Source of the DNA: Campylobacteraceae bacterium
GTDB taxonomy: Bacteria > Campylobacterota > Campylobacteria > Campylobacterales > Sulfurospirillaceae
Direction: 5' to 3'
NCBI GenBank assembly: GCA_027050775.1
Contig: JALUBH010000002.1
Span: 1-41,839 of the forward strand
DNA length: 41,839 nt
How positions within the stretch are numbered: position 1 is the stretch's first letter; every line of letters starts with the position of its first letter. The translations under genes and the position numbers were made by a program. Below, piece by piece: positions 2,634 to 39,071 of this stretch. The notes beneath the pieces are model-generated. The model had not been told where the DNA came from. It did not search any database and worked only from the letters and a program-made list of their open reading frames with translations.

Positions 2634-3512
2634 CTATGCAAAGTCCACTTTGGCGATATTGTGTTTTATGCCCAATTTCTCAGGGCTAATTCCAAGAGCA
2701 AGTCCAACCATCTGAGGCATGTGAAGTATAGGGATAGATACATCTTGCCCCATCTCTTTACTGATACTTTTTTGTTGAACATCAAGTCTTAAGTGACAAA
2801 GAGGACAGGGTGTTACCATGGTATCTGCATTGTTTTCTATGGCATCAAGCATAGCATTGCCTGAAATCCTATTTGCTGTCTTTGGTGCTTGAAGCTCTAC
2901 ATGAAAACCGCAACATTTGTTTTTATGTCCATACTCAACGCTGTGACCACCAAGTGCTATGATGAGTCTATCCAGTGAAGTTGGCTTATATGGATCTTCA
3001 TTTCCATTTGATGAGCCGTGAACTTTTTGCGGCCTTATGTTATGACAACCGTAAAAAGGTGCGATATATAAGTTTTTAAGAGGATTTTTTACTCTTGAAG
3101 CTATGGCATCTATACCAAAATCATCAATAAGAGCATATAAAAAGTGCTTTATCTGTGAAGTTCCCTTATACTCTAAACCTACTTCTTTTAATTTTGCATT
3201 AACTCTATCTTTTAGCTTTTCATCATTATCAAGCCTGTATTTTGCGGTTGCTAGATTTAGCTGGCAAGTGTTGCAAACTGTGACTATAGTGAGTCCTCTT
3301 TTTTCAGCATAACATATATTTCTTGCATTCAAAACCAAAGAGAGAAAATCATCATAATCTTGCATATGAGAAGCTCCGCAACAGGTTGCTTCCACAAGCT
3401 CTACTAATTCTATACCGAGAGCTTCAGCAATCGCTAGAGTGGATTGCATAAGCTCAGGTGTACTCTGTTTTGGTGTGCAACCTACAAAAAATGCGTATTT
3501 TAAATTTTTCAT
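2634..3512 (-). CDS. sdhE: Type E succinate:quinone reductase / fumarate reductase, CCG-domain subunit
   Basis: This 292-aa protein has two cysteine-rich CCG domains, like heterodisulfide reductase HdrB. Domain 1 has C12, C44-C45 (TCCGA), C80 and C83; domain 2 has C156, C200-C201 (KCCGF), C236 and C239. In type E succinate dehydrogenases and in the Wolinella/Campylobacter methylmenaquinol:fumarate reductase, such a subunit replaces the usual haem-bearing membrane anchors. It attaches the complex to the membrane and is thought to pass electrons between quinone and the Fe-S subunit. It is the last gene of sdhABE, 9 bp after sdhB. No transmembrane helix is evident, which fits peripheral attachment. 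Confidence 0.85.
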   Translation of the reverse strand: MKNLKYAFFVGCTPKQSTPELMQSTLAIAEALGIELVELVEATCCGASHMQDYDDFLSLVLNARNICYAEKRGLTIVTVCNTCQLNLATAKYRLDNDEKLKDRVNAKLKEVGLEYKGTSQIKHFLYALIDDFGIDAIASRVKNPLKNLYIAPFYGCHNIRPQKVHGSSNGNEDPYKPTSLDRLIIALGGHSVEYGHKNKCCGFHVELQAPKTANRISGNAMLDAIENNADTMVTPCPLCHLRLDVQQKSISKEMGQDVSIPILHMPQMVGLALGISPEKLGIKHNIAKVDFA

Positions 3513-32964: not shown

Positions 32965-34170
32965 TTAATCTATATCTATAAGAGTTTGGGCTTGAACCAT
33001 ATCTTTGTCGCCTCGTCCTGAAAGGTTGACTATGATCAACTTGTTTTCAAGTTCCTCTTTTTTCATCTTTTTGAGATATGCAACAGCATGAGAGCTTTCA
33101 AATGCAGGGATAATTCCCTCTTTTTGACTCAGCCAAACAAAAGCATCAAGTGCCTCTTGGTCTGTGATATTTTCATATCTTGCTTTTTTTAAATCTTTCA
33201 AAAAAGCATGCTCCGGTCCGATACCAGGATAATCAAGTCCGGCAGAGATGGAGTACGCCTCTTTTATCTGTCCGTCATCGTCTTGGAGCAGGTAACTCAT
33301 TTGTCCGTGAAGTACCCCTGGGCTTCCTTTGGCAAGTGAACATCCGTGTTGTTGGGTGTCTATACCTTTTCCGCCTGCTTCTATGCCTATACATGTAACG
33401 CTGTCTTCATCTAGAAAGTGGCTAAATATCCCCATGGCGTTACTCCCGCCACCTATGCATGCTATGACAGAATCCGGCAATTTGCCCTCTTTTTTCAAAA
33501 TTTGTGCTTTTGCCTCGTATCCGATGATAGCTTGAAAGTCTCTAACCATCATAGGGTAGGGGTGAGGTCCTGCTACGGTTCCTATGATGTAAAAGGTGTC
33601 TCTTGCGTTTGTAACCCAGTATCTTATGGCTTCATTCATGGCATCTTTTAGAGTTTTACTGCCACTTTTGACAGAGTGAACACGAGCGCCTAGAAGCTTC
33701 ATCCTGAAGACATTTAGCTCTTGTCTTTTAACATCTATTTCACCCATAAAGACATCACACTCAAGTCCTAAAAGAGCAGCTACTGTAGCAGTTGCCACTC
33801 CGTGTTGTCCTGCACCTGTCTCTGCTATAACCTTTTTCTTGCCCAATCTTTTTGCCAAAAGTCCCTGAGCTATAGTATTGTTTATTTTGTGCGCTCCGGT
33901 GTGGTTTAAATCCTCTCTTTTGAGATAGATTTTTGCACCTAACTCGTCAGAGATATTTTTTGCATAGTATAGTGGCGAGGGACGACCAACATACTCATTA
34001 AAATAGTAATTTACCTCTTCCCAAAAGTTTTTATCGAATCTTACTTTTGCATATTCTTTGTCTAATTCAAGCAGAGTCGGCATAAGAGTTTCAGGGACAT
34101 ATCTGCCACCATAAATCCCAAAATGCCCGTTATCATCCGGGTCAAATTTTGATTTTTTAGGTACGTACAT
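32965..34170 (-). CDS. trpB: Tryptophan synthase beta chain, without neighbouring trpA
   Basis: This 401-aa PLP enzyme condenses indole with serine. The PLP lysine is K95 in [19 protein letters not shown] and GGGSNAMG bind substrate and cofactor phosphate. It belongs to the standard TrpB1 type, which normally works with TrpA. No trpA or other trp gene is near; it sits inside the dedA-apt block, where Helicobacter has no trpB as far as I recall. ATG 34168-34170 overlaps the apt TGA (TGATG). Confidence 0.95.
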
Positions 34171-34724
34171 CAATTAACCTCCAAAACAGAATATACAGAA
34201 GTTATCTTTTTTATCTCTTTATCACCGTTTAAAAACTTCAAGTTTATGACAAAACATGCCTCTTTGCAGTTTGCTCCGGCCTTATTTATGAGGGTGACTG
34301 CTGCTTTTGCTGTTCCTCCCGTGGCAATTAAATCATCTATCAAAAGAACATTAGGGTTCTCTTTTTCGCATTTAAAGGCGTCTATATGGACTTCAACTTC
34401 ATCGACTCCATACTCTAGAGAATACTTTTCGCTGATGGTTGTATATGGTAGCTTACCGGGTTTTCTAATCGGCACAAATTTTATCCCAAGCATAGTAGCA
34501 AGTGATGCTCCAAATATAAAACCTCTACTTTCAATTCCGGCGATGTAGTCTATATCTTGATCTTTATACCTGTTGTACAGATGGTTCATTAGAAGTGTGT
34601 ATGCTTTACTGTTTCCCAAAAGAGTTGTGATGTCTTTGAAACTGATTCCGGGCTTTGGAAAATCCTCAACTGTCCTGATTGAATTTAGCAAAAAGTCCTT
34701 ATCGTTTTTATTTAGTGTCTCCAT
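34170..34724 (-). CDS. apt: Adenine phosphoribosyltransferase
   Basis: This 184-aa enzyme salvages adenine to AMP with PRPP. The PRPP-binding motif is [22 protein letters not shown] near the N-terminus and ESRGFIFGA are family hallmarks. It is translationally coupled to trpB and lies 13 bp after the 26-codon ORF. Confidence 0.95.
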
Positions 34725-34737
34725 TATATTCCTTGCT

Positions 34738-34818
34738 CTATTTGAAAATTTTCATTTTTAGATAAACGAAGAATCCGGTTATCAAGAGTACAGATCCATA
34801 AGCAATCAAATCTGTCAT
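34738..34818 (-). CDS. 26-residue membrane microprotein in the rpiB-apt operon
   Basis: A 27-codon frame starts [20 protein letters not shown] and ends in a basic tail (KMKIFK). One hydrophobic segment of about 17 residues predicts a single transmembrane helix with a cytoplasmic basic C-terminus. The ATG forms an ATGA overlap with the stop of the upstream coiled-coil gene, the common coupling in this window, and its TAG ends 13 bp before apt. No family is recognised. Its neighbour is also a membrane-anchored protein, so the two may act together; that is inference. Confidence 0.62.
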
Positions 34819-35144
34819 AGTAGTGCCTCAATCTTTCCTTCTAACTCTTTTATATGTTGTCTTAATTTTTCATTTTCCATTCTATATTGAGAATTTCTGG
34901 TTCTAAGGGATTTTAAGTCATTTTTGATTTTGTTTAGTTCATCACTTAGTATGTCTATATTTCCTAAAGATCTTTGCAGTTGCACCTGATACTTTCTTAT
35001 AACTATCTCCGCATCACCTAGAGTCTCTTTTATTATTATGCTACTTTGTCTCTCTTTGCGAAGTAGAGTACGATAATAAAAAACCATCACTAGCAAGTAT
35101 ATACTAAGGGAAAGAAGAATTGTAGTCAATAACCAATCTGACAT
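34815..35144 (-). CDS. Membrane-anchored coiled-coil protein, function unknown
   Basis: This 109-aa protein has an N-terminal transmembrane segment (about 4-24), a basic stop (YRTLLRKER) and a long coiled coil (about 55-108) with heptad spacing. A protein of this kind occupies the same place between apt and rpiB in Helicobacter (my recollection). No domain is recognised; DivIC/FtsB-like topology is a resemblance only. It starts 2 bp after rpiB ends, and its stop overlaps the microprotein start. Confidence 0.75.
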   Translation of the reverse strand: MSDWLLTTILLSLSIYLLVMVFYYRTLLRKERQSSIIIKETLGDAEIVIRKYQVQLQRSLGNIDILSDELNKIKNDLKSLRTRNSQYRMENEKLRQHIKELEGKIEALL

Positions 35145-35146
35145 AT

Positions 35147-35575
35147 CTAAATCTCTATTTTTGCAACTCTTTGTGCATGTCTTCCGCCCTCAAAGTTTGT
35201 TTGACACCATCCGTTTAAAATAGATTGGGCAACCCCTAGACCTACAACTCTTTCTCCAAAACACAAAACATTCGCATTATTGTGAGCTCTTGCCATCTGT
35301 GCAGTATAGGCATCATGGCAAAGTGCGGCTCTTATACCTTTATGCTTGTTTGCACTCAAGCTCATACCGATTCCTGTACCGCATATCAAAATACCTTGAC
35401 TCCCGTCATTTGCCAAGACTTCCAAGCAGAGTTTATGTGCAAAATCAGGATAATCAACTCTAGAGTTATCTTGCGGTCCTAAATCTACCACTTCATGCCC
35501 CATGTTTTGTAACATCTCTATGATGTTAGGTTTGATATTCACACCCGCATGGTCAGTTGCAATAAAAAATTTCAA
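35147..35575 (-). CDS. rpiB: Ribose 5-phosphate isomerase B
   Basis: This 142-aa RpiB/LacAB enzyme interconverts ribose 5-phosphate and ribulose 5-phosphate. DHAGVN at residues 8-13 and ILICGTGIGMS with the catalytic Cys are diagnostic. The start is TTG 35575 with AAGGAAG upstream. First gene of rpiB-coiled coil-microprotein-apt-trpB-dedA-pepA-ychF. Confidence 0.94.
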   Translation of the reverse strand: MKFFIATDHAGVNIKPNIIEMLQNMGHEVVDLGPQDNSRVDYPDFAHKLCLEVLANDGSQGILICGTGIGMSLSANKHKGIRAALCHDAYTAQMARAHNNANVLCFGERVVGLGVAQSILNGWCQTNFEGGRHAQRVAKIEI

Positions 35576-38663: not shown

Positions 38664-38738
38664 CTATTTTACTCTGCCTTTATTCAAAATGTTGTATCAT
38701 ATCAAATATCTATTAAAGAGTTGATAAAGTGAGTGTGT

Positions 38739-39071
38739 ATGAGAGTGGTTTTTGTTGGTTTTTTGTTGGTTGTCTCAATCTTTGGGGATGATTTTATCAC
38801 AAAGATGGAATATGCAAAGATGTTGTATTTTAATCCAAGGGGCATAGGGTGTAATCTTTGTCATGGAAACAATGGACAAGGTTCGATTATAGCTAGATAC
38901 AAAGTCAAAGGGAAACGAGAGATATTGAGAGCTCCACCTATAAACAGTCTAGGCTTTATCGCCTTTTCTGAAGCTTTACAAAAGACTCACAGAGTGATGC
39001 CTACCTATTTTCTGACAAACAAGGAGATAAATATACTCTATTTTTATGTAACAAGTAAGGCTAAGAAATAG
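38739..39071 (+). CDS. Small exported monohaem c-type cytochrome
   Basis: This protein of about 110 aa has a signal peptide (roughly 1-16), one haem site CNLCH and a candidate axial Met in HRVMPTYF, the class I cytochrome c layout. Probably a periplasmic electron carrier; partners are unknown. A similar gene lies beside folD in Campylobacter (recalled). The ORF can begin at GTG 38733; I prefer ATG 38739. Its 3' end overlaps an antisense 33-codon ORF. Confidence 0.8.
   Translation: MRVVFVGFLLVVSIFGDDFITKMEYAKMLYFNPRGIGCNLCHGNNGQGSIIARYKVKGKREILRAPPINSLGFIAFSEALQKTHRVMPTYFLTNKEINILYFYVTSKAKK

Follow-up and report, generated by a model that had tools for sequence, protein, structure and literature searches.

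A conserved, unannotated gene downstream of rpiB in Campylobacterales encodes a predicted single-pass membrane microprotein

The microprotein gene and its orthologues

Judging from the comparison of its orthologues, the open reading frame at 34738..34818 on the minus strand of the window (the whole stretch of DNA that was analysed, 41,839 nucleotides) is a real gene that is kept by selection. It has 26 codons followed by TAG, and its ATG (34816-34818) shares the ATGA at 34815..34818 (-) with the TGA of the upstream open reading frame, which encodes a membrane-anchored single-helix (coiled-coil) protein of 109 aa (34815..35144, (-)). Further upstream lies rpiB, ribose-5-phosphate isomerase B (35147..35575, (-); TIGR01120/NF004051 over cut-off), and downstream follows apt, adenine phosphoribosyltransferase (34170..34724, (-); TIGR01090 over cut-off), whose start codon at 34724 is 13 nt from the TAG of the microprotein gene. 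By its consensus, the AAGGA at 34730..34734 (-), between this stop and the ATG of apt, is a putative Shine-Dalgarno sequence of apt with a spacing of 5 nt. The operon thus has the order rpiB-109-apt-trpB-dedA, with the microprotein gene placed between the 109-aa gene and apt. A preliminary description had claimed an ATGA-coupled frame of 26 residues that ends 13 bp ahead of apt and fills a sizeable gap. The first part is exact in the sequence, and without the frame the gap would indeed amount to 90 nt, the widest in the operon; of the remaining junctions one is an overlap and the others measure 2 nt and about 13 nt. The genome that bears the window comprises 2.19 Mb, and its genus, which belongs to the Sulfurospirillaceae, is represented by metagenome-assembled genomes. 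Elsewhere in the window, an open reading frame of 112 aa (38733-39071, (+)) contains a CNLCH motif of the haem-binding type and possibly encodes a small c-type cytochrome.

All ten genomes of the genus that were checked carry an open reading frame of 26-28 aa at the same site, whose start codon lies at the 109-aa stop or overlaps it. The absence of a conserved frame from close relatives, which had been named beforehand as an observation that would speak against the gene, was therefore not encountered. Further orthologues were found with a profile built from these ten genomes, and the strong matches whose surroundings were inspected are all located after rpiB. In total, about 65 orthologues at the rpiB locus were collected from seven families of the Campylobacterales (f1, f7, f9, f10, f12, f19, and f22), comprising 59 coding sequences and six more peptides, or 58 distinct peptides. 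They follow rpiB and nearly always precede apt. One of the carriers is cultured, Sulfurospirillum arcachonense DSM 9755, which encodes the microprotein MGVEVISYSAFGIFLLLFLYLKYILFK.

Third codon positions carry most of the changes among the orthologues. The proposed check by a Ka/Ks-type analysis revealed strong purifying selection, with a pN/pS of 0.21 (pS 0.54, pN 0.12) for 19 disjoint orthologue pairs of at least 70% identity, as obtained by Nei-Gojobori counting, which is crude at these distances while the direction is not in doubt. These pairs contain 183 synonymous changes at 341 synonymous sites and 135 non-synonymous changes at 1180 non-synonymous sites (binomial p about 2e-41). The pooled ratio over 169 overlapping pairs is 0.34, and the nearest distinct orthologues (L003 and L004) differ from the window by ten synonymous and four non-synonymous changes. 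A frame of 26 codons is short enough to appear by chance in the spacer of a single genome. However, a pN/pS of 0.21 together with a frame at the same site in ten of ten genomes means that the frame is more than chance, and with about 65 orthologues known the probability of a fortuitous frame has become practically negligible.

Scans of the window peptide and 51 orthologues against Pfam and NCBIfam gave nothing significant, a PDB profile search with the microprotein gave no match, and a literature search returned no paper on the gene. The family is new in the sense that it is conserved and has no Pfam or NCBIfam model, while its kind, the single-pass membrane microprotein, is already known. For the Campylobacterota this means one more conserved protein family that lacks annotation, and with 26 codons the gene is below the usual size for gene callers.

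Predicted structure and orientation of the peptide

The peptides are between 24 and 33 aa long and can be aligned on a lysine that is invariant in all 58 distinct sequences. Numbered from this lysine, phenylalanine at +4 is found in 57 of the 58, as are Y/F at -14 and F/V at -11. A small residue is present at -15 and usually also at -10, and phenylalanine is favoured at -4. Most of these positions lie on one face of a helix, a face that is rich in Y/F, and the conservation moment has its maximum at 100 degrees, with a permutation p of only 0.015. In every one of the 58 peptides a core of 16 residues is apolar, without any D, E, K, R, H, N, Q, or P. The N-terminal ends together contain 57 acidic and no basic residues, and the C-terminal ends 135 basic and 18 acidic residues. 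With a length below about 50 aa and a single apolar helix next to charged residues, the microprotein has the features of the generic small single-pass membrane proteins and is predicted to be located in the inner membrane. According to the positive-inside rule a basic flank predicts the cytoplasmic side, so that the acidic N-terminal and basic C-terminal ends make an N-out/C-in orientation likely. Beyond the conserved phenylalanine the length and sequence of the C-terminus vary widely, and the basic tail has only about six residues.

Putative start signal and probable translational coupling

The start of the microprotein gene overlaps the stop of the 109-aa gene throughout the Sulfurospirillaceae in the forms ATGA, TAATG, or TAGTG, except for one case in which the two abut, 1 nt apart. 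In f7, f10, and f22 the two genes do not overlap; the start is typically located 7-17 nt past the stop and has a Shine-Dalgarno sequence of its own. In the window, a GAGG at 34826..34829 (-), 7 nt before the ATG and inside the Glu-Ala codons of the ...KIEALL tail of the 109-aa protein, is the putative Shine-Dalgarno sequence of the microprotein gene. A stop-start overlap (ATGA/TAATG) and a GAGG in the upstream gene, as in a coupled pair, are thus both present. The glutamate of this tail is encoded by GAG in all 28 orthologues with an overlapping or abutting microprotein start, and by GAA in 17 of the 18 spaced orthologues, which have AGGAG-like Shine-Dalgarno sequences of their own. If all loci with a 109-aa gene are considered, GAG is found at 53 of 55 overlapping junctions and GAA at 40 of the 53 others. 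This offers a natural contrast, in which a Shine-Dalgarno sequence would arise in the codons of the upstream gene where the next gene overlaps. The tree contains only about seven well-supported independent contrasts for the GAG/GAA pattern, and the sign test is not significant. With so few switches, the reading of the pattern as an embedded Shine-Dalgarno sequence is suggestive and not proof.

Campylobacter species, which do not have the microprotein, often also have GAG, with apt starting in the overlap. In loci such as L181, L186, and L196 an ATGA closes the 109-aa gene and apt apparently starts there; apt in Campylobacter thus apparently takes the overlap that belongs to the microprotein gene in Sulfurospirillaceae. 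Several Sulfurospirillum without the microprotein retain GAG, which fits a recent loss of the gene.

The frame in the window begins in the upstream stop, is followed after 13 nt by apt, and has conserved residues near the C-terminal end. It could therefore be a leader or coupling frame that governs how ribosomes reach apt, either by being translated or by a C-terminal motif of the arrest-like form K-x-x-[ILM]-F, and whose peptide has no task in the membrane. We regard this as quite unlikely. It is apparently apt that starts directly in the ATGA overlap in Campylobacter, where no such frame is present, and the gene downstream of the microprotein is not apt in two of the orthologous loci, in one f12 genome (G047; a repeat-protein-like gene of 747 aa) and in one f9 genome (G077; a gene of 408 aa). 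In addition, length and sequence vary widely after the conserved phenylalanine, and the N-terminal half of the helix with its Y/F positions is conserved as well.

The 109-aa protein and rpiB as neighbours

The 109-aa protein has homologues in 288 of the 399 genomes of the Campylobacterales. Its AF2 model is one helix from residue 2 to 108 with a mean pLDDT of 92 and an N-terminal apolar segment, and no Pfam or NCBIfam model matches it over the cut-off. It constitutes a highly conserved, uncharacterised family with the core ...IRKYQIQLQRSLGNIDIL..., which is arguably as interesting as the microprotein. HP0573, which we take to be its relative in Helicobacter pylori, gave no matches in a literature search.

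The 109-aa gene is located between rpiB and the microprotein gene in f1 (the Sulfurospirillaceae, including S. arcachonense), f7, f10, and f22. The preliminary description had rightly recognised a conserved single-pass microprotein whose tail is basic and whose gene overlaps that of the 109-aa protein; its apolar core and basic C-terminal end recur in the 58 peptides. It had further suggested that the microprotein pairs with the coiled-coil protein as a small accessory subunit, and this part does not hold as an obligate relationship. The genes are adjacent in these four families and overlap in f1, and both proteins are single-pass membrane helices. However, in f19 and in G047 and G077 the microprotein gene follows rpiB with no 109-aa gene in between, and the profile search for the 109-aa gene gave no match above noise in the 11 f19 genomes or in G047. 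In G077 a relative of the 109-aa gene is located on another contig, unlinked from the microprotein gene. Conversely, Campylobacteraceae (Campylobacter) and many others encode the 109-aa protein and not the microprotein; outside f1, f7, f10, and f22 the 109-aa genes that were read are mostly located 0-46 nt before apt with no microprotein gene. Since the genes separate in both directions, their pairing is positional and not obligate; we have rejected the microprotein as an obligate subunit, and a dedicated subunit that is co-translated with the 109-aa protein is in general unlikely. A lineage-specific pairing could still have been established in f1, f7, f10, and f22.

The steadier neighbour is rpiB, not the 109-aa gene: it is found upstream, directly or via the 109-aa gene, in the inspected loci. 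In most families apt is found downstream. With rpiB as the most constant neighbour and a C-terminus that is predicted to be cytoplasmic, the microprotein might serve as an anchor or scaffold and bring soluble RpiB or Apt to the membrane through its basic tail. However, this tail has only about six residues, the genes for RpiB and Apt are retained in relatives without the microprotein, and the neighbourhood can be explained by operon inertia, so that such an anchor is very unlikely.

Possible function and partners

We consider it somewhat more probable than not, by analogy with known small subunits and from the sequence features described above, that the members of this unannotated family each provide an accessory single-pass helix to a larger membrane protein. 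The synthesis of the microprotein would be tied to that of the operon by termination-reinitiation, with the embedded GAGG acting at the ATGA, and the peptide would insert N-out/C-in into the inner membrane. The helix face with Y, F, G/A, F, K, and F at -14, -11, -10, -4, 0, and +4 would then bind the larger membrane protein, and this binding may stabilise or tune it, as CydX, CioY, or AcrZ do for their partners. The accessory function is proposed by analogy with CydX and CioY (PMC4325964, PMC11955535). CydX of Escherichia coli, with 37 aa, is an accessory single helix in a membrane complex and resembles the microprotein in size class and in having a single helix, which makes it a model for an accessory helix (PMC4325964). 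CioY of Campylobacter jejuni, with 34 aa, is encoded downstream of cydAB (cioAB) and binds CioA, and it is likewise an operon-encoded microprotein of the Campylobacterota with a single transmembrane helix that was long missed by annotation (PMC11955535). The microprotein, however, has no sequence-family match to CydX and no cydAB neighbour; it is located at rpiB-apt instead of cioAB, and many of its carriers do not have the PF01654 oxidase. Among 51 members there was no match to the CydX or CioY family in Pfam or NCBIfam. A weak NCBIfam similarity to KdpF (NF011326) was seen for one of 51 members; for the window peptide it has an E-value of 0.21 over 12 residues and a score of 11.4 bits compared to a cut-off of 57.

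Several membrane complexes were considered as obligate partners and rejected. KdpA is encoded in eight of 60 genomes, all of them Sulfurospirillum without the microprotein at the rpiB locus, and thus in none of the carriers among these 60, which separates the microprotein from KdpF. CydAB does not qualify because PF01654 is absent from the high-completeness carriers G010, G013, G019, G047, G054, and G057. For the DedA protein of the operon only paralogue-level matches were obtained in the complete carriers G010 and G019, and in some f7 genomes DedA is not at the microprotein locus. An obligate partner must occur wherever the microprotein does, which excludes the 109-aa protein, KdpABC, CydAB, and the operon DedA. 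This short list of excluded partners makes the hunt for the partner well posed. Widely held complexes are possible candidates, namely LepB, the Sec/YidC machinery, or a haem-copper oxidase. The PF00115 subunit of the latter is encoded in all 22 carriers tested, which is consistent with such a partner but not discriminating, as carriers only were included. In the f7 loci fetched, neither the M50 protease nor LepB adjoins rpiB. We only tentatively suggest, and on balance doubt, that the microprotein is the accessory helix of a housekeeping complex common to Campylobacterales outside Campylobacter, such as a cbb3-type oxidase or the signal peptidase/translocon, and that the ancestor of the order already had it, with repeated later losses of which one affected the Campylobacteraceae.

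Evolutionary history

On a tree of RpiB and Apt from 128 loci, the microprotein must have switched between presence and absence at least 11 times, also within Sulfurospirillum. This tree is unrooted, and gains and losses are thus not separable by count. In one genome (G016, locus L039) the sequence past the stop of the 109-aa gene contains a truncated remnant, MSTKLISY, and then departs from the family pattern; the microprotein gene has apparently decayed there. In Sulfurospirillum sensu stricto, long, repeat-containing spacers of about 120-290 nt are located at the microprotein site. The remnant and these spacers argue for an older gene that was lost repeatedly, and the patchy presence and the remnant together mean that the microprotein is dispensable.

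A small, hydrophobic, and patchily retained peptide could also be a free-standing membrane effector, for example a stress or toxin-like peptide, and not a subunit. Its fixed synteny with a housekeeping operon across families and the strong purifying selection speak against such a peptide, as does the lack of an antitoxin-like partner next to it, and we regard this reading as highly improbable compared to an accessory helix.

A possible unlinked copy, MPDWGVYVTFGVLTALIMYIKMAIFRE, was noticed in one genome (G305; L128, about 3022-3102), where it is preceded by a Shine-Dalgarno-like site and located just before an MFS-like gene. With an E-value of 2.9e-4 and a single genome among about 400 it is too weak to count as a relocated gene. 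The Sulfurospirillum spacers of L019-L025 and L027-L029 share segments such as TTTACATGTAAACAT and TCTGCCTC...GAGGCAAGCTTT, and resemble an inserted repeat element.
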